Virus record (IMG/VR): IMGVR_UViG_3300035187_001913
Location: 1-42,399 of that record
Length of the DNA stretch: 42,399 bases
Reading direction: 5' to 3' (one strand)
DNA from: a virus
The position numbers were made by a program, and so were the translations under genes. This document shows, piece after piece, positions 1,639-12,276 of this stretch. The number at the start of each line of letters is the position of its first letter. Position 1 is the stretch's first letter. The notes under the pieces are model-generated. The model searched no databases. It worked only from the letters and a program-made list of their open reading frames with translations, and was not told the origin of the DNA.

Positions 1639-1928
1639 CGCCCCTCACCGATGGCCCGGATGGCGCGGGCGTACACCGCCGCATAGTTGTGCATGTGCTT
1701 GCTGCGCTTGTGCTCGGTGTCAAGCAGCACCGCGCACCGCTCGCGCTCGTCTGCCGCAATCGCCCGCTCCGCAGCCATCAGCCGCCGCGCAGTCTCTCGC
1801 GCTGCTGCAAGCTCGGCTGTCAGGCGCTCGATGGTGTCGGCGGCTTCACGCAGTAGCGAAGGTGGCGGGACTTCGTAGCACGCTGGCTCGCTTGCCCAAT
1901 CGCGCAGCCGCTGTATCAGGTCGCTCAT
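1635..1928 (-). CDS. small coiled-coil phage protein, unknown function
   Basis: A 97-residue protein from the ATG at 1928, chosen because GAGAGGGG lies 5 bases upstream. An in-frame ATG at 1931 and a longer frame to 1949 are alternatives. Residues ~20-65 are Ala/Glu/Arg-rich and should form a helix or coiled coil (REAADTIERLTAELAAARET). It resembles the Ead/Ea22-style accessory proteins of temperate phages in composition only. It overlaps xis by ATGA. Confidence 0.7.
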   Translation of the reverse strand: MSDLIQRLRDWASEPACYEVPPPSLLREAADTIERLTAELAAARETARRLMAAERAIAADERERCAVLLDTEHKRSKHMHNYAAVYARAIRAIGEGR

Positions 1929-1939
1929 CATCGCCCCTC

Positions 1940-2272
1940 TCATGTCCAAAAGTCGCTACGTGGCGACGGAACCCGCTGGTAGCTCTTGCGCAGCCATTCA
2001 AGCGCTGTAGTCCACCCGCAGACCTTCCACGGCTTGCCGTCTGCCTCGACCCGATACGAGTCAACACGACGGGTCCGCCACATCCGCAGCTCGTGCGTCA
2101 CCGGCTGGCCTGAGTCGTAGTCCGTCACCGTCACCACGCGCCGCAAGTCAGGCAGCGTCGGCGGGTACAGCCGCGCCGGCTTGCTCGCGTTCGCTCGGTC
2201 GCGGCCACGGCGCAGGGCTTCGAGCTTGCGCGCGTGGGCGGCCTGGCGCTTGGGGGATGGCTTGCGGTACAT
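1940..2272 (-). CDS. hypothetical basic phage protein
   Basis: A 110-residue protein with a strongly basic N-terminal 40 residues (KRQAAHARKLEALRRGRDRA) and a C-terminal half with beta-rich segments (RVVTVTDYDSGQPVTHELRM). No recognised family. It is the first non-cassette gene downstream of the attC array; its ATG lies 31 bases from the left half site. No good Shine-Dalgarno is visible, so the truncation that created the half site may have removed its original leader. Confidence 0.65.
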   Translation of the reverse strand: MYRKPSPKRQAAHARKLEALRRGRDRANASKPARLYPPTLPDLRRVVTVTDYDSGQPVTHELRMWRTRRVDSYRVEADGKPWKVCGWTTALEWLRKSYQRVPSPRSDFWT

Positions 2273-2302
2273 GCAGAGCTTGCGAGGTTTGGCGATAGCT
2301 TA

Positions 2303-2309
2303 GTTGGGC
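2303..2309 (+). other. attC half site, R' core only (left end of array)
   Basis: GTTGGGC fits the R' consensus GTTRRRY. To its left there is no RYYYAAC partner within 100 bases and no clear L' box, so only the R' side of a site remains. It marks the left boundary of the array, three bases from the stop codon of the first cassette gene. Confidence 0.6.
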
Positions 2310-2311
2310 GG

Positions 2312-2629
2312 CTAGTAGCAGATCACGCGCGCAAGGTGCGCCACGGTCCGCACCTTGATCGTCTTGCCGCTGGTGCTTGTCACCTCTAGCCCCTTTGCGC
2401 CCATGTCGTTCTCCCAGCAGTACCAATCGAGCCATTCGTTGTCGTCGCCAACCTCGCGCCCCAGGCATGCGGTGTAGGCGTCCCACATACGCCCCATAGC
2501 CAGCGCAATCGGCGCTTCTGGGCCGCACTTCGTCAGTGCTTGCAATGCCTCGTACTGGGCCTGCCAGTCGTCGTACCTGCCCTGCCACTCCAGCAGGCGC
2601 GGCGCAATGTCTGCGGGCTTCTTCTTCAT
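2312..2629 (-). CDS. cassette 1 protein, hypothetical
   Basis: A 105-residue Trp-rich acidic protein starting MKKKPADIAPRLLEWQGRYD and containing NEWLDWYCWENDMG. The start at 2629 is preceded by AAGGGAAAAG at ribosome-binding distance, while the longer frame to 2674 would run into attC1. The stop TAG (2312-2314) falls just before the R' core at 2303-2309. The leader between attC1 and the ATG is about 34 bases, the compact layout of a gene cassette. No family recognised. Confidence 0.75.
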   Translation of the reverse strand: MKKKPADIAPRLLEWQGRYDDWQAQYEALQALTKCGPEAPIALAMGRMWDAYTACLGREVGDDNEWLDWYCWENDMGAKGLEVTSTSGKTIKVRTVAHLARVICY

Positions 2630-2663
2630 GCGTCTTTTCCCTTCGTGCCTTCGTTCACCAGCC

Positions 2664-2730
2664 GCCCAACCCATCGCTCAACCGGAGGTCAGCGGCAAGC
2701 CGCTGCCCCCGGTTAGCTCAAACGTTAGGC
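2664..2730 (+). other. attC site 1 (67 bp)
   Basis: R'' GCCCAAC 2664-2670; spacer CCATC; L''-side arm starting GCTCAACCGG; L'-side arm ending CCGGTTAGC; spacer TCAAAC; R' GTTAGGC 2724-2730. The arms pair except for an extra C (in GCT-C-AACC) and an extra T (before CAGCGGC) on the R'' side, plus one A/G mismatch. This is the 5- and 6-base spacer pattern and two-extrahelical-base pattern of classic 59-base elements such as aadA1. Polarity is plus. Confidence 0.9.
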
Positions 2731-2960
2731 CCCTTTGGCGCATGCTTGCAGCGGCAGTTTTCGCACACTTCGCGCAGCACCTGCCGCGTGCAAATGTCGG
2801 CCTGCAGTCCTACGTTTCGAATCCACGCCTTCAGCGTTTCAACCTCAGTAACGTATGCTGCCTCCCGCCTCATGGCTTGCCGCACATATGCTGCTGTTCC
2901 AGCGCGGGGCCTAACTGACGGTTCAACCCGGACTGTTGCCGGCGTGTCGCTTTTGCTCAT
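2718..2960 (-). CDS. cassette 2 protein, Cys-rich, starts inside attC2
   Basis: An 80-residue protein (MSKSDTPATVRVEPSVRPRA...) with a helical middle and a cysteine cluster near the end (ICTRQVLREVCENCRCKH) that could bind metal. The ATG at 2960 has AGGAG 7 bases upstream, so translation on the minus strand is well supported. An in-frame ATG at 2966 is too close to the AGGAG. Both start and ribosome-binding site lie in the central part of attC2, and the TGA stop (2718-2720) lies in the R'-side spacer of attC1, so the gene is embedded in recombination sites at both ends. Confidence 0.72.
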   Translation of the reverse strand: MSKSDTPATVRVEPSVRPRAGTAAYVRQAMRREAAYVTEVETLKAWIRNVGLQADICTRQVLREVCENCRCKHAPKGPNV

Positions 2961-3009
2961 TTGCATACTCCTGTAGCGCCGGCATCAGCCGGTTAACCTA
3001 GCGTTAGAT
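2909..3009 (+). other. attC site 2 (101 bp) with coding central region
   Basis: R'' GCCTAAC 2909-2915; spacer TGAC; arm GGTTCAACCCGG; arm CCGGTTAACC; spacer TAGC; R' GTTAGAT 3003-3009. Extra bases on the R'' side interrupt the repeat (GGTT-C-AACC-C-GG-A-CTG), and pairing extends through TGCCGGCG. The roughly 40-base apex holds the Shine-Dalgarno, the ATG and the first codons of the cassette 2 gene. Polarity is plus. Confidence 0.87.
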
Positions 3010-3174
3010 GCTTGGCGCATCTTTGGCCTTCCGTATCAGCGCCTCCAGCCACTCAGTGCCGTTGCGCGCCACTTTCTCCGCAATGTCGGGGTAGGTCCGC
3101 ACGCTGATGCGCGCGGTTCGCTTCAGCTCGGGCGGCAAGGCCGGGCGGCCCGGCTTCTTCTTGTCGTCGCTCAT
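3004..3174 (-). CDS. cassette 3 second gene, ribbon-helix-helix-like small protein
   Basis: A 56-residue protein: basic GRP linker (KKKPGRPALPPELKRT), one beta strand (RISVRTY) and two helices (PDIAEKVARNGTEWLEALIRKA), the order seen in Arc/CopG-type DNA-binding proteins. Start ATG at 3174 overlaps the stop of the upstream gene (ATGA, 3171-3174), implying translational coupling. Its TAA stop (3004-3006) is exactly the TTA after the crossover G of attC2's R' core. Repressor function is inferred from fold alone. Confidence 0.75.
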   Translation of the reverse strand: MSDDKKKPGRPALPPELKRTARISVRTYPDIAEKVARNGTEWLEALIRKAKDAPSI

Positions 3175-3353
3175 GCGGAGCGACGGATCGGCGTGTAGGG
3201 CTGGCCAACAACATAAACCAGAATGATGGGGTTTCCGTCTTGGTCAAATTCTGTTCGCTGGTACTCGTCGCCAGGGTTCAGGCCAAAAGTGTTCTTCATG
3301 TACTTTTGGTGAGCTTCGAGTCGCTGTTGTTCGGCAAGTTGGTTGCGGGTCAT
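3171..3353 (-). CDS. cassette 3 first gene, hypothetical
   Basis: A 60-residue protein: helical N-terminus (MTRNQLAEQQRLEAHQKYMK) then a beta-rich part (YQRTEFDQDGNPIILVYVVG). GGAG lies 6 bases before the ATG at 3353. It forms a two-gene unit with the RHH-like gene through an ATGA overlap and is preceded by a good promoter (3399-3428). Such pairs in integron arrays are often toxin-antitoxin modules, but neither protein matches a family I recognise, so I do not call it one. Confidence 0.72.
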   Translation of the reverse strand: MTRNQLAEQQRLEAHQKYMKNTFGLNPGDEYQRTEFDQDGNPIILVYVVGQPYTPIRRSA

Positions 3354-3398
3354 GCTGCTCTCCGGTTAGTTGCTGCTGCGTCTTGCTGCAGTGACTCC

Positions 3399-3428
3399 AA
3401 TGTACGCCATAAACTCTGCGCAGGTCAA
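3399..3428 (-). promoter_or_regulatory. sigma70-like promoter inside cassette 3
   Basis: Reading the minus strand: -35 TTGACC (3428-3423), 18-base spacer, -10 TACATT (3404-3399), about 45 bases upstream of the ATG at 3353. This fills the otherwise empty 115-base leader of cassette 3 and would give its two genes expression independent of the phage PL promoter, for example in the lysogen. Confidence 0.55.
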
Positions 3429-3468
3429 GTGTTTATGTGCGCCACAAATGTAAAGTTCGCCAGCACGC

Positions 3469-3540
3469 ATCTAACTCGGCGCTGAACCCGGACCGCCCTA
3501 CGGCTACGCCTCCGGTCGGCCGGTTAGCTCTGCGTTAGGC
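3469..3540 (+). other. attC site 3 (72 bp)
   Basis: R'' ATCTAAC 3469-3475; spacer TCGGC; arm GCTGAACCCGGACCG; arm ending GGCCGGTTAGC; spacer TCTGC; R' GTTAGGC 3534-3540. The R''-side arm has extra G, C and A (GCT-G-AACC-C-GG-A-CCG), at the same places as in attC2. A CTACGGCTACGCC segment forms the apex. Polarity is plus. Confidence 0.9.
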
Positions 3541-3729
3541 CTCAAACCAGCGCACCGCGTCAGCCTTGCCGGTGAACACCAGCCACGCGGCGCGCAGGCG
3601 GTGGCGCAAGCCCAGGCCCTGCCAGCCCATCGGGCGTGCTGCAACCCATCCCAGCGTCGGGTGCGAGTGCGAGCAGTGCTCTGTCAGGTCCACCAACTCA
3701 TTTACCCAATACACACGCGGGCAGTTCAT
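3535..3729 (-). CDS. cassette 4 protein, phage-type hypothetical
   Basis: A 64-residue protein beginning MNCPRVYWVNELVDLTEHCS with a conserved-looking GWVAARPMGWQG core and a C-terminal helix (LRAAWLVFTGKADAVRWFEA). I recognise the style from small genes of Burkholderiales and Pseudomonas temperate phages; no function is known to me. AGAGAGGTGAT precedes the ATG. The leader from attC4 is 26 bases, and the TAA stop (3535-3537) is the TTA of attC3's R' core. Confidence 0.74.
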   Translation of the reverse strand: MNCPRVYWVNELVDLTEHCSHSHPTLGWVAARPMGWQGLGLRHRLRAAWLVFTGKADAVRWFEA

Positions 3730-3755
3730 ACATCACCTCTCTGGCCTGCATTGAG

Positions 3756-3842
3756 GCCTAACCCTGCGTTCCAGCGGACGTGCCGCCAGCAGGGCGGTTG
3801 CTCGAATGTCCAGCGGGCACGCCGCTGAACTCCACGTTAGCC
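3756..3842 (+). other. attC site 4 (87 bp)
   Basis: R'' GCCTAAC 3756-3762; spacer CCTGC; arm GTTCCAGCGGACGTGCC; arm GGCACGCCGCTGAAC; spacer TCCAC; R' GTTAGCC 3836-3842. The arms pair completely except for an extra C and an extra A on the R'' side (GTTC-C-AGCGG-A-CGTGCC). R' deviates at one position from GTTRRRY. Polarity is plus. Confidence 0.88.
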
Positions 3843-4016
3843 CGCCTTCTGTTCGGCGCGGGCTCTTTTCCTCGCCAGCTTGTCGGCGTACTCCGTCAGC
3901 GCTGGCACATCGTCAGGATGCACCCAGCGCTTCCACTGCACGCGGCCTGCGGCTAGTTCGCGGGCTTTGCGCTCGGCTTGGCGCTGGGCTGCTGTCTTGG
4001 CTGTCGGTTGCGTCAT
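3837..4016 (-). CDS. cassette 5 third gene, basic helical protein
   Basis: A 59-residue highly charged protein (AAQRQAERKARELAAGRVQW... EYADKLARKRARAEQKAG). It overlaps the upstream gene by ATGA (4013-4016), which fixes the start at 4016 in place of the longer frame to 4052. The TAA stop (3837-3839) coincides with the TTA of attC4's R' core. Lys/Arg-rich helices suggest nucleic-acid binding, but this is only composition. No family recognised. Confidence 0.68.
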   Translation of the reverse strand: MTQPTAKTAAQRQAERKARELAAGRVQWKRWVHPDDVPALTEYADKLARKRARAEQKAG

Positions 4017-4228
4017 GGTTGCATTACCGGCTCTGAAACCCACAATTCCCATTCATCTCTGGAAAACCTAGTAAAGCCTTCTCCGCTGTCGCGGGCTGCT
4101 TTTGTAAGTTGCCACACGGTGCCGCATTTAGCGCACCAGTGCCGGGTGTAGCCCCAGGCTGAGGCATCTACGGTGTGAATCGACGGCGCTTTGCAGCAGC
4201 CGCCGATTTCTTCGGCGGCCATCTTCAT
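4013..4228 (-). CDS. cassette 5 second gene, small Cys-rich protein
   Basis: A 71-residue protein with CC at residues 11-12 and a zinc-knuckle-like HWCAKCGTVW in the middle, so a possible small zinc ribbon. The ATG at 4228 has GGAAGG 7 bases upstream and overlaps the stop of the gene before it (ATGA 4225-4228). A longer frame to 4246 is less likely. Unknown function; middle gene of a three-gene coupled cassette. Confidence 0.68.
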   Translation of the reverse strand: MKMAAEEIGGCCKAPSIHTVDASAWGYTRHWCAKCGTVWQLTKAARDSGEGFTRFSRDEWELWVSEPVMQP

Positions 4229-4389
4229 GCAACAACCTTCCACCAACCCATCTCTTCGCCCAGAGCCACGTCGGTTTGCTTTTGCAGCAAGGCCACGTTG
4301 TCGAAGAACTCGGGCAGGCTGGTCAGCGGGATAACGCGGAAAGCGTAGAGACTGCCTTGCTCGGTAACAGTGATGGTGGTTGCGTTCAT
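4225..4389 (-). CDS. cassette 5 first gene, 54-residue hypothetical
   Basis: A 54-residue ORF beginning MNATTITVTEQGSLYAFRVI, with an apparent beta-hairpin N-terminus and a helix (PEFFDNVALLQKQTDVALGE). GGAG lies 8 bases before the ATG at 4389, and the stop overlaps the next start by ATGA, which strongly supports translation despite its small size. It heads the three-gene unit behind the promoter at 4425-4453. Confidence 0.7.
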   Translation of the reverse strand: MNATTITVTEQGSLYAFRVIPLTSLPEFFDNVALLQKQTDVALGEEMGWWKVVA

Positions 4390-4424
4390 GTTGCTTGCTC
4401 CGGGTTGCGTGTTGCGATGTAGAG

Positions 4425-4453
4425 ACTATGCCTCATCGTGAGCACTCACGCAA
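4425..4453 (-). promoter_or_regulatory. promoter with palindromic operator in cassette 5
   Basis: Minus strand: -35 TTGCGT (4453-4448), 17-base spacer, -10 CATAGT (4430-4425). A perfect 14-base palindrome, CGTGAG CA CTCACG (4437-4450), overlaps the -35 box and spacer, the usual place for a repressor site. The rest of this ~105-base leader is empty. Box matches are moderate (3/6 and 4/6), so the promoter call rests partly on spacing and the palindrome. Confidence 0.5.
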
Positions 4454-4495
4454 GCACTATTTTCACCGTTACATCTGCGCGCTCCGGGTGGGGCG

Positions 4496-4569
4496 GGCTA
4501 ACTGCTCGCACAACCTGACCCCCTACGGCGCTTCGCGCCTACGTGGGCAGGTTTCCTCGGGCGTTAGGC
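4496..4569 (+). other. attC site 5 (74 bp)
   Basis: R'' GGCTAAC 4496-4502; spacer TGCTC; arm GCACAACCTGACCC; arm GGGCAGGTTTCC; spacer TCGGGC; R' GTTAGGC 4563-4569. Extra C and A on the R'' side (GCA-C-AACCTG-A-CCC). The apex carries a GGCGC/GCGCC mini-hairpin. R'' deviates at one position (GGCTAAC), matching the deviant R' of attC4. Polarity is plus. Confidence 0.85.
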
Positions 4570-4576
4570 CACCCGC

Positions 4577-4906
4577 TCACGGCCGCTCGTTGGCATTCGC
4601 AAACACTTGCAGAAACTTGTTCCCGTCCGTGTGCGTGTCCACCACAACCATCGTGTAGTCGGCGCCTCGGTACACCCACTTCGGCAAGTGCCGTTGGGTG
4701 TAAATCTCGTTCTCGTAGTAATCGCCGTCTTCGCTTTCCAGTTCCTGCTCGGTCTTGGCGAAGCGCACCACGCCAGGGCCTTCTCCGTCCAGTTGCCAAA
4801 AGTATTCGCGGGCATCGTCCAGCGGCAGCACGCGCCAGTCCTCCACGTACCCGAAGTACGCGAACACCTCGGCCCGCAGTGCGTTGTATCGGTCTAGCAA
4901 TTCCAT
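4577..4906 (-). CDS. cassette 6 protein, acidic hypothetical
   Basis: A 109-residue acidic, aromatic-rich protein (MELLDRYNALRAEVFAYFGY ... DGDYYENEIYTQRHLPKWVY). The ATG at 4906 is 31 bases from the GTTAGGC (minus reading) of the right half site, with GGAG upstream, and the TGA lies 8 bases from attC5. It is the cassette nearest to PL. No family recognised; charge and size resemble small phage inhibitor or accessory proteins, which is speculation. Confidence 0.76.
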   Translation of the reverse strand: MELLDRYNALRAEVFAYFGYVEDWRVLPLDDAREYFWQLDGEGPGVVRFAKTEQELESEDGDYYENEIYTQRHLPKWVYRGADYTMVVVDTHTDGNKFLQVFANANERP

Positions 4907-4931
4907 CGTTTTCTCGCTCCGGTTAAAACGG

Positions 4932-4954
4932 GCCTAACCCCTCGCTCGAGCCGC
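4932..4954 (+). other. attC half site, R''-L'' arm only (right end of array)
   Basis: GCCTAAC (4932-4938), spacer CCCTC, then GCTCGAGCCGC (4944-4954), the same R''-5-L'' layout as the complete sites. No L'-R' partner follows before ninB, whose stop codon is at 4967-4969. The site is therefore truncated, and this cassette could not be excised through its own attC. Confidence 0.65.
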
Positions 4955-4966
4955 TTTTGTCGTTGC

Positions 4967-5359
4967 TCACGCGCTCGCCTCCCATGCCAGCAGCCATTCC
5001 AGAAACTCGCTGCCGTCTGCCTTGTCGAGCTTGCTCGTGCGGTTCGACACGTCCACCATGCGCAGCCCGTCCAGCGACTTGACCCACTTGCCGGGCCGCT
5101 TCGTCTCGCTGCGCCACTGCTCGACCAACAGCCAACGAAGCTCGTCCAGCGCTTGCGTGTCGGTCGGCCTGCCTGCCGTCTGAGCGATGCGCGCGACCGT
5201 GACGTGAATCAGCCGATTCTGCGGGCTCGTGCGGCGCTCTTCTTCGAGCGTGAGCTTGACGGGCTTGCCCGCCTCGGTGCGGCGCTTGATCCACTCGGCG
5301 GCCTTGGCGAGCACGTCGCTGGCCTGCTGCCATGTGTGAAGACTGATCGTGTGGCTCAC
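4967..5359 (-). CDS. ninB: NinB-like recombination protein
   Basis: A 130-residue NinB family protein. Features are the N-terminal helix QQASDVLAKAAEWIKRRTEA, the LEEERRTSPQNRLIH segment with QNR..H typical of NinB, and a C-terminal WRSETKRPGKWVKSLDG region. NinB (lambda Orf) helps RecA-loading in phage recombination. The GTG at 5359 overlaps the upstream stop (GTGA), which fixes the start; the longer frame to 5413 lies inside the nuclease gene. It lies directly upstream of the cassette array in the same transcript. Confidence 0.82.
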   Translation of the reverse strand: MSHTISLHTWQQASDVLAKAAEWIKRRTEAGKPVKLTLEEERRTSPQNRLIHVTVARIAQTAGRPTDTQALDELRWLLVEQWRSETKRPGKWVKSLDGLRMVDVSNRTSKLDKADGSEFLEWLLAWEASA

Positions 5360-9843: not shown

Positions 9844-9920
9844 ACTACAAAAAAGCGAACCCGGAGACGGCGGTAACCGTCCCGGGCTCTATCACCAACC
9901 AGCATAGGAGTGCTGACTGA
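9840..9920 (+). CDS. possible 26-residue peptide upstream of helicase
   Basis: GTG at 9840 overlaps the upstream stop (GTGA) and the frame VNYKKANPETAVTVPGSITN... stops at 9918-9920, abutting the helicase ATG at 9920. The overlap at both ends suggests coupling, but the peptide has no recognisable features and much of its sequence forms the hairpin at 9860-9886. It may be a leader region only. Confidence 0.3.
   Translation: MNYKKANPETAVTVPGSITNQHRSAD
9860..9886 (+). promoter_or_regulatory. stem-loop before the helicase gene
   Basis: CCCGG-A-GACGG (9860-9870) pairs with CCGTC-CCGGG (9877-9886), giving a 10-bp stem with one bulged A and a 6-base loop. No U-run follows, so it is not an intrinsic terminator. 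Sitting 33 bases before the helicase start it could control translation or stabilise mRNA. Confidence 0.5.
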
Positions 9921-11302
9921 TGACTAGTGAAAGTGTAGGGGACTACGGGGCGTTCCTGTTGTCCAAGAGCCAAGCCGGGGCTGATAGTGGGTTCGCCCCT
10001 GTCTGGATGCCGGATGCGTTGATCGACTTCCAGCAGTCGTTAGCAGAGTGGGCCATCCGCAAGGGCCGCGCTGCCAACATGGCCGACTGCGGGCTTGGCA
10101 AGACCTTGATGGGCCTGACCTGGGCGTCGAATGTTGCGCGCAAGACGGGCAAGCCGGTCTTGTACCTGACGCCGGTTGCCGTTGCGCCACAGACGATCCG
10201 CGAGGGTGAGAAGTTCGGCATTGAATGCCGGCACTCACGCGACGGCAACTCGAGCGGGCACATCGTGGTGACGAACTACGAAAAGTTGCACCTGTTCAGC
10301 GCGGCCGACTTCTCCGGCGTGGTGTGCGATGAGTCGAGCATCCTTAAGAGCTTTGCCGGCCAGCGCCGCGGCGAGATTACCGCGTTCATGCGCAAGGTGC
10401 CGTATCGGCTGCTGCAAACGGCCACGGCTGCGCCGAACGACTACATCGAATTGGGCACGTCTTCCGAGGCGCTTGGGTACATGGGCTACATGGACATGCT
10501 CAACCGCTTTTTTAAGAACGACCTGAACAACAGCGCGCAGGGCCGAATGCGCGGCGAGGTCATCAAGTGGCGGCTGAAGGGCCACGCGGAACAGCCGTTT
10601 TGGCGTTGGGTGTGTTCATGGGCTCGGGCAACGCGGCGGCCGTCAGACCTGGGGTTTGATGACGCGCGCTTTGTGCTGCCGCCGCTGCACGAGGTCGAGC
10701 ACTTGATCGAAGTCAACTCGCTGGCCGATGGCATGTTGTTTGCGCTGCCGGCTGTCGGGCTGAAGGAACAGCGCGAGGAACGACGCCGCACGGTGCAGGA
10801 GCGCTGTGAAAAGGTGGCCTCGCTGGTCAACCATACGGGGCAGCCTGCAATCGTCTGGTGCCACCTGAACGACGAAGGCGATCTGCTGGAAAAGCTGATT
10901 CCCGATGGCGTGCAGGTCAGCGGCAGCGACTCGGAAGAAGTCAAGGAGGAGCGGCTTACAGCCTTTGCCGAGGGCAAGGCTCGGATTCTGATCACGAAGC
11001 CGAAGATCGGCGCATGGGGTCTTAACTTCCAACACTGCAATCACGTCGTCTTCTTCCCCTCGCACAGCTTTGAGCAGTACTACCAAGCGGTGCGGCGGTG
11101 CTGGCGCTTCGGGCAACAGCGCCCGGTACGGGTGGACATTGTGACTACTGAGGGCGAGCGCGGAATCACGCGCAACCTTCAGCGCAAGGCGGATCAAGCC
11201 GACGAGATGTTTTCGCGCTTGGTGGCCGAGATGAACAACGCGCTTCGCATCGAACGCGCAAACAACGCAACGAAGACAGTGGAGATCCCCGCATGGCTGT
11301 GA
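9920..11302 (+). CDS. SNF2-like SF2 DNA helicase
   Basis: A 460-residue superfamily 2 helicase. Motif Q-like FQQSLAEWA, Walker A ADCGLGKT (55-62), DESS box (137-140), TATAAPND (motif III-like), and the C-terminal RecA domain with ITKPKIGAWGLNFQ and QYYQAVRRCWRFGQQRPV (motif VI). The compact SNF2-type layout is common in phage replication modules. Overlaps the methyltransferase by 10 bases, so the two are co-translated. Probable role in replication or DNA remodelling. Confidence 0.88.
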   Translation: MTSESVGDYGAFLLSKSQAGADSGFAPVWMPDALIDFQQSLAEWAIRKGRAANMADCGLGKTLMGLTWASNVARKTGKPVLYLTPVAVAPQTIREGEKFGIECRHSRDGNSSGHIVVTNYEKLHLFSAADFSGVVCDESSILKSFAGQRRGEITAFMRKVPYRLLQTATAAPNDYIELGTSSEALGYMGYMDMLNRFFKNDLNNSAQGRMRGEVIKWRLKGHAEQPFWRWVCSWARATRRPSDLGFDDARFVLPPLHEVEHLIEVNSLADGMLFALPAVGLKEQREERRRTVQERCEKVASLVNHTGQPAIVWCHLNDEGDLLEKLIPDGVQVSGSDSEEVKEERLTAFAEGKARILITKPKIGAWGLNFQHCNHVVFFPSHSFEQYYQAVRRCWRFGQQRPVRVDIVTTEGERGITRNLQRKADQADEMFSRLVAEMNNALRIERANNATKTVEIPAWL

Positions 11303-12276
11303 TTGACCAACTCGTTACCGACAAGTTCGCCATTTTTAACGGCGACTGCATGGAAGTCATGCAGGCTCTGCCTACGGGCAGCGTTCACCACTCGATCTAC
11401 TCGCCACCGTTTGGCGGGCTGTATCACTACAGCAGCAGTGAGCGCGATCTGTCGAACTGCGACGACTACGATTCGTTTTTTGAGCACTACGCTTTTGTGG
11501 TGCGCGAGCTGGCCAGGATCACTATGTCGGGCCGGGTGACGGCGGTTCACTGCATGGACGTGCCGCGCAGCAATAGCGGCACCGATTCGCTGATCGACTT
11601 TCCCGGCGACATCATCCGACTGCACGAGCGCGAGGGCTGGCGCTACACCGGCCGGCGCATGATCTGGAAAGAGCCTCTCGCGGTGCGCCTGCGGACCATG
11701 CAGAAGAACCTCGCACATGCTTCTCTGTGCGCCGATAGCATCGACTGCGGGGTGGCAAGCGGCGACATGCTGCTGACGTTCCGCAGGGCCGGCACGAACC
11801 CGGTACCGGTGCGCCATCCAGAAGGACTTTTCGACTACGCCGGGGAGCGCGTGCCGCCGTCTGACTTGCTGCCTTACCGCGGCTGGACGGGCAAGCAAAC
11901 AGAAAACCGCTGGTCGCACTGGATTTGGCGCCAGTATGCGGATTGCATGTGGGACGACGTGCGGATGAACCGCGTGCTTCCGTTCCGTGAGGCGCGGGAT
12001 GGCGAAGACGAAAAGCACGTTCACCCGCTGCAGCTCGACGTGATCGACCGTTGCGTCGAACTGTTCAGCAACCCGGGAGAAACAGTCTTTACCCCGTTCA
12101 TGGGCGTCGGCTCCGAAGTCTACAGCCCGGTTTTGCTTGGTCGGCGCGGCATGGGGGCTGAACTGAAGCCGAGCTATTACCGCCAGGCCGTGAAGAATGT
12201 GCAGATGGCGGCGGCTGGCCGGAAGGACATCGAAACCTCCGAAGCATTCGACTTCGAGGGCGCCGAGAGTGCCTAA
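11293..12276 (+). CDS. DNA methyltransferase (N4/N6 amino type)
   Basis: A 327-residue amino-methyltransferase. Catalytic SPPF (37-40) comes before the SAM-binding region FTPFMGVGSE (266-275), the beta-class order (motif IV, target recognition, motif I). SPP[FY] is seen in N4-cytosine and some N6-adenine enzymes. GGAG lies 8 bases before the ATG. No cognate restriction enzyme is nearby, so it is probably protective or regulatory, as in other podoviruses carrying a helicase-methylase pair. Confidence 0.86.
   Translation: MAVIDQLVTDKFAIFNGDCMEVMQALPTGSVHHSIYSPPFGGLYHYSSSERDLSNCDDYDSFFEHYAFVVRELARITMSGRVTAVHCMDVPRSNSGTDSLIDFPGDIIRLHEREGWRYTGRRMIWKEPLAVRLRTMQKNLAHASLCADSIDCGVASGDMLLTFRRAGTNPVPVRHPEGLFDYAGERVPPSDLLPYRGWTGKQTENRWSHWIWRQYADCMWDDVRMNRVLPFREARDGEDEKHVHPLQLDVIDRCVELFSNPGETVFTPFMGVGSEVYSPVLLGRRGMGAELKPSYYRQAVKNVQMAAAGRKDIETSEAFDFEGAESA

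Follow-up and report, generated by a model that had tools for sequence, protein, structure and literature searches.

An integrase-less attC cassette array in the early region of a temperate phage, with reshuffled cassettes in sister phages

Gene cassette arrays bounded by attC sites are already known from phages. Clusters of attC sites lacking an integron integrase (CALINs) were found 17 times, together with 3 complete integrons, among 10,705 phage genomes by Qi et al. 2023 (PMC9892861). The CALINs include those of Tetrasphaera phage TJE1, Polaribacter phage P12002L, and Pseudoalteromonas phage PH101, and five of six tested phage attC sites recombined with IntI1 (PMC9892861). Complete integrons were described in Vibrio phage p16, P1 L-II, and Shewanella phage M16-3 and were reported as pieces of bacterial integrons (PMC9892861). 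An earlier note on the DNA analyzed here, made from the sequence alone, claimed that no well-described example within a phage early operon was known, which was too strong given these published CALINs. The DNA in question (the window) is IMG/VR virus record IMGVR_UViG_3300035187_001913 at its full length of 42,399 bp. Six cassettes lie between positions 2303 and 4938, and this region is very probably a genuine CALIN in the early region of a temperate phage, shuffled by an integron integrase (IntI) supplied in trans.

The array belongs to a known kind, having, like the phage CALINs of Qi et al., attC sites around small genes in a phage genome and no IntI. However, the arrays described here are longer, occupy one conserved locus within a lineage, and are reshuffled between sister phages; their genes also run consistently antiparallel to attC, with a Shine-Dalgarno-like motif and ATG (SD-ATG) within attC loops. 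Two related phage records (G015 and G023) resemble the complete phage integrons in carrying IntI beside attC arrays, but their cassettes are related to those of other phages, and many viral IntIs group together (few bacterial references were included). With class 1 mobile and sedentary chromosomal integrons the locus shares the R and L boxes, the extrahelical base, the polarity of top and bottom strands, the G|TT crossover, and the cassette unit, whereas its genes are oriented toward, and not away from, the cassette start, and expression from a Pc promoter is not implied. A literature search (mainly open-access journals) returned no report of reshuffled sister-phage arrays, consistently antiparallel cassettes, or attC-internal starts in phages, and IntI in phages sharing two of the window cassette genes was likewise not found described.

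Sites were searched without filters by using a covariance model (R1) trained on 21 bacterial attC sites only (class 1 resistance cassettes, Shewanella, and Vibrio); R1 was built here and differs from the published IntegronFinder model. The top five places in the 42.4-kb genome were exactly the five complete sites A to E, all on the plus strand (35.3 to 24.5 bits, next best 9.7 bits genome-wide). A CALIN has at least two profile-recognized attC sites, and all five scored above the 20-bit threshold used by Qi et al.; TJE1 gave one weak R1 hit of 15.8 bits. Read 5' to 3', each site opens with R'' (NNYYAAC), which 5 nt separate from an L'' box holding one additional base; beyond a variable loop come L', a spacer of 5-6 nt, and R' (GTTRRNN). 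Half-sites stand at 2303 (GTTGGGC) and 4932-4938 (GCCTAAC). In a structural detector, sites A to E scored 10.5-12.0, similar to known class 1 attC sites (about 9-12), and 300 dinucleotide shuffles gave 0.003 hits per region at scores of at least 10.5. The covariance model is the fairer test because R1 never saw phage sequence, whereas the detector's first pattern missed D and E (cores GTTAGCC and GGCTAAC) and was loosened after these had been viewed.

The bottom strands of all five sites folded with R''/R' and L''/L' paired and an extrahelical base, site C weakly by energy. For 30 family sites taken together, 93.8% of arm cells were paired, and the covariation score of 0.275 exceeded both the shuffled arms (0.089, 0/500) and every slid register. 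It is scarcely credible, and the least probable of the explanations weighed here, that these are chance attC-like repeats of another kind (terminators, binding sites) or products of metagenome misassembly, even though site C folds no better than many of its shuffles and the records are metagenomic. Chance repeats are largely refuted by the independent attC model, the covariation, and the cassette-unit pairing described next, and misassembly would not join sequences sharing as little as those at the junctions reported below.

The first bases of an integron cassette are complementary to the R'' of its own attC. The window cassettes run from one G|TTRRRY to the next, each with an R'' complementary to its own start, and this true pairing of starts with R'' was the best of 720 pairings within the window. 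Summed over 62 cassettes of the family, the complementary runs totaled 594, whereas none of 20,000 random pairings exceeded 400; window cassette 6 entered this sum as 0 although 8 nt match by sequence. Where a few long family "cassettes" show runs of 3-4 nt, an attC between two cassettes was probably missed and the two were counted as one. The earlier note had described five attC sites separating nine small genes in six cassettes, and this was borne out by the detector, R1, folding, and pairing; the sites likewise stood clear of background in a covariance model and folded as single strands with paired R and L boxes, both of which the note had proposed as checks.

Relatives were identified in IMG/VR by the gene at 1940-2272 together with the adjoining boundary, which yielded 13 related loci, some of which, such as L048 and L061, may represent the same phage. 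In these loci the flank runs to exactly G|TT, with mostly different cassettes beyond, and the boundary of roughly 30 bp is conserved in all except L058, where it is divergent. Dozens of sites were detected by R1 in the flank-sharing loci, nearly all in one polarity, a few near-palindromic sites scoring on both strands. No sites were detected by R1 in nine loci that share another gene but not the flank, and 36 further loci without a detected array gave 0 hits. Phages found through the cassette 5 gene also carry arrays, the largest, in L082, comprising 17 sites within about 7 kb. The possibility of cassette exchange raised by the earlier note gained support here, as the same locus holds different and in part reshuffled cassettes in related phages and not fixed repeats.

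The clearest reshuffling was observed between L055 and L005, whose flanks are 96.9% identical and which have four cassettes in common in a different order. Cassettes c1, c3, c4, and c6 of L005 correspond to c4 (770 bp, 100%), c5 (488 bp, 100%), c6 (474 bp, 99.8%), and c1 (279 bp, 100%) of L055, respectively. L005 c2 is precisely missing at the c4-c5 junction of L055: 770 nt to the left of this junction match L005 c1, and 926 nt to the right match L005 from c3 onward, while on the other sides the parents match over no more than 3 nt and 1 nt. In L055 the first position, directly next to the phage boundary, is taken by L005 c6, so that a 291-nt match to the L005 flank is joined to a 283-nt match to L005 c6 (other-side matches of 6 and 0 nt). 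Beyond each junction the match to either parent stops within 0-6 nt, inside the G|TTRRRY core. The array of L053 begins with L005 c5. A single cassette in different places with exact junctions was thus seen in L005, L055, and L053, the window's own cassettes offering no such case.

Joining that is exact at G|TT, with almost no sequence in common, points to recombination of the integron integrase type, and neither homologous recombination nor misassembly accounts for it; the almost 100% cassette identity between reshuffled sister phages indicates that exchange was recent. Good evidence from sequence comparison therefore supports recent IntI-type recombination in this phage lineage. Homologous recombination between attC-like repeats by phage proteins, without IntI, could draw on the NinB/Orf gene that adjoins the array and on the conserved arms common to attC sites. 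We consider it very improbable as the source of the shuffling, since the parental matches stop 0-6 nt past the junction, in the core at G|TT, and are far too short. Moreover, the cassette-specific complementarity of R' and R'' is that of a circular cassette, and crossovers spread through the attC arms were not seen in the junctions read.

Matches to the integron integrase profile TIGR02249 were found in two related records, G015 and G023 (411 and 465 bits). G015 (IMGVR_UViG_3300044640_001880) is a circular record of 39,785 bp with a terminal repeat of at least 100 bp and genes for terminase, portal, head, and tape-measure proteins. Its 357-aa IntI is followed, across the record end, by a GTTAGGC core and an array that includes the cassette 5 gene (93% nucleotide identity), so that intI and attC array occur together. 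In G023 (26.7 kb, with terminase, portal, and head genes), a 340-aa IntI lies near attC and a relative of the cassette 6 gene (75% amino acid identity). A scan of IMG/VR added about 34 viral contigs (L122-L153) with IntI at an identity of at least 37%, the phage status of each being taken as listed. In about 20 of these, R1 placed attC upstream of IntI on the opposite strand, which is the usual layout, and several carry a recurring attI-like sequence ending GAATT..(N)|GTT. Eleven viral IntIs group with 99% support in the Shimodaira-Hasegawa-like approximate likelihood ratio test (SH-aLRT), in a tree with only few bacterial references. Separately, a gene annotated as xerD in Virus Rctr41k (KX853513, L175; 4680-5678) is an integron integrase by TIGR02249 (383 bits), and R1 detected no attC near it.

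A tyrosine recombinase also lies near the array within the window itself. That this enzyme shuffles the cassettes is a shade less probable even than homologous recombination, because it has no TIGR02249 match, lacks the IntI-specific patch, and is an ordinary phage integrase by phrog_1. The earlier note was correct that a phage-type integrase is present and IntI absent from the record.

Coding direction, which the earlier note missed, is the opposite of that in ordinary cassettes. All nine window open reading frames (ORFs) are encoded on the minus strand, against the direction of the attC top strand; within a cassette they are read from the attC side toward the cassette start, whereas the usual order is the opposite. 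Codon scores for 67 cassettes of the family gave 56 antiparallel to attC, 0 parallel, and 11 unclear, so the usual (not strict) arrangement of a gene parallel to the attC top strand is not found here. Since the cassette genes are co-directional with the neighboring phage genes, they would be read by the phage operon or from cassette-internal promoters. An SD-like motif and start codon occurred within 110 nt of R'' in 57 of the 67 cassettes. An SD-ATG was located on the bottom strand within the loop in 29 of 54 attC sites of at least 80 nt. Shuffled loops contained one in 6.6% of cases, and none was present on the top strand or in the 21 bacterial reference attC sites. In sites with this motif, to judge from the sequence, the recombination hairpin seems also to serve for translation initiation. 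Window site B (2909-3009) is one example of an attC loop with the SD-ATG of an antiparallel gene.

A minority of 45 cassette proteins match phage families, mostly of unknown function; the named products include RNA ligase, N6/N4 DNA methyltransferase, and an anti-TRAP-like protein. Our guess is that swapping small early genes against host variation or host defense is the advantage to the phage. One cassette of L058 is 2384 bp long (reverse-complement coordinates 1723-4106) and carries helicase-like and DNA methyltransferase genes.

Taken as a mechanism, the locus would be a cassette site used by a lineage of related phages, with cassettes entering and leaving through integron integrase recombination. 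The attC bottom strand would fold into a hairpin, IntI would cut the R box at G|TT, and the cassette would then be joined to another attC or to the fixed boundary on the left, which is attI-like in its position. In many long attC sites the loop of this hairpin also contains the SD-ATG of the gene next to it. IntI would be supplied in trans by the host or by co-resident phages, some of which have IntI near attC and related cassette genes. The earlier note had suggested trading through a host IntI; action in trans is retained, but the donor need not be the host, because related phages encode IntI.

Several observations weigh against this mechanism. No IntI was found by TIGR02249 in the whole 42.4-kb record, and 23 of 25 related records, although these include many fragments, also lacked the profile. 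The left boundary is unlike the attI of the IntI-bearing phages, or any attI seen. The fold energy of site C is not clearly below that of its shuffles, and the last attC is truncated, which may mean that part of the array is decaying. Of the six window cassettes, none turned up complete in any other array, recurrence being confined to parts of 5 and 6. No prophage was found in two scans of genome contigs that used the flank gene and the portal gene, so the host was not found.

Some of these points would suit a fossil, in which the phage once took up part of a host chromosomal integron that is now inert: there is no IntI, the last attC is truncated, and half-site F stands alone. Captured bacterial integrons are also documented in phages, for example in a Vibrio anguillarum phage with part of a chromosomal integron (PMC9892861). 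A fossil is nonetheless unlikely, as several cassette genes match phage families, the content of a single fixed phage locus differs between related records, the cassettes reshuffled between sister phages are almost 100% identical, and the genes are antiparallel throughout, unlike ordinary host cassettes. A CALIN shuffled by IntI in trans remains the preferred reading. Feature coordinates are provided in Table 1.

Table 1. Coordinates of the cassette array, its flanks, and related features (window positions unless another record is named)
Feature	Position	Strand	Evidence or remark
Phage tyrosine integrase, 328 aa	492-1478	+	phrog_1 3.5e-43, PF00589
Flank gene, 110 aa, left array edge	1940-2272	-	64-88% identity in 11 related loci, always adjoining the array boundary
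Fixed boundary, attI-like by position only	2273-2302	+	conserved in 12 of 13 related loci; G|TT crossover point follows at 2303
Cassette 1	2303-2723		start complementary to own R'', 11 nt
Cassette 1 gene, 105 aa	2312-2629	-	weak phrog_28377 5e-4; coding score 25.9 minus vs 0.3 plus
attC site A	2664-2730	+	35.3 bits, E 4.7e-6; fold z -5.0
Cassette 2	2724-3002		start/R'' complementarity 10 nt
Cassette 2 gene, 82 aa	2718-2966	-	start codon within attC B behind AGGAG (bottom-strand loop); strand unclear by codon score
attC site B	2909-3009	+	24.7 bits; fold z -3.5
Cassette 3	3003-3533		start/R'' complementarity 9 nt
Cassette 3 gene a, 56 aa	3004-3174	-	ORF, minus-strand coding score
Cassette 3 gene b, 60 aa	3171-3353	-	ORF, minus-strand coding score
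attC site C	3469-3540	+	24.5 bits; fold z -1.3, alone not significant
Cassette 4	3534-3835		start/R'' complementarity 12 nt
Cassette 4 gene, 64 aa	3535-3729	-	phrog_21988 1.3e-10, family of unknown function
attC site D	3756-3842	+	26.9 bits; fold z -2.2
Cassette 5	3836-4562		start/R'' complementarity 11 nt; both ends common to two L005 cassettes, middle replaced
Cassette 5 gene a, 59 aa	3837-4016	-	occurs in other phage arrays; 92-93% nt identity to L056, L115
Cassette 5 gene b, 72 aa	4013-4231	-	ORF
Cassette 5 gene c, 54 aa	4225-4389	-	ORF, minus-strand coding score 18
attC site E	4496-4569	+	24.5 bits; fold z -2.3
Cassette 6, attC truncated	4563-4938		start GTTAGGCC vs R'' GGCCTAAC, 8 nt by sequence
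Cassette 6 gene, 109 aa	4577-4906	-	phrog_24232 3.1e-12; relatives in 27 viral loci, one near an IntI gene
R'' half-site of truncated last attC	4932-4938	+	GCCTAAC by sequence; no L'/R' partner seen
Right flank, NinB/Orf recombination mediator	4967-5359	-	phrog_72 3.9e-14
G015 IntI and array region	L114 8647-9720 and L115 1-2400		

The window record carries a 43-bp terminal direct repeat and is thus probably a complete genome, circular or permuted. PHROGs matches to integrase, excisionase, repressor, NinB, HNH endonuclease, helicase, methyltransferase, replication initiator, terminase, portal, and spanin mark it as a tailed, temperate phage. Among 50,697 phage records, its integrase and terminase matched only distant relatives, all below 60% identity. 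BLASTN of the array region against the same records gave only weak matches to Synechococcus phages, under a recombinase or hypothetical gene; the Rfam search gave no match and the tRNA scan was empty. A complete integron comprises intI, attI, and an attC array, and the first of these is absent from the window. A helicase-methyltransferase pair is also present at 9920-12276, outside the array.

Between cassette 5 gene a and two relatives, codon changes were 13 synonymous and 0 nonsynonymous in one comparison and 9 synonymous and 1 nonsynonymous in the other. Cassette 5 and L005 cassettes 7 and 11 form three copies in which both ends are kept and the middle is swapped, indicating that cassettes also change internally. 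Upstream of cassette 5 gene c (window 4391-4460, minus strand) lies the palindrome GTGAGTGCTCAC, in a promoter-like stretch common to L005 cassettes; the palindrome is perhaps an operator.

A broader proposal is that tailed phages own an integron kind of their own, with phage IntI and attI, antiparallel cassettes of phage genes often started inside the attC hairpin, and integrase-less arrays moved in trans, by which early genes would be traded through a shared pool; we hold the chances for and against it to be evenly balanced. The hypothesis is open to direct test with established attC x attI assays. Such a cassette system would also supply a pool of small phage genes of unknown function, which may include anti-defense genes. 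Phage mosaicism is usually credited to homologous and illegitimate recombination, and site-specific cassette swapping of early genes, if true, would be a further route to it. Integrons would then serve phages, and not bacteria alone.

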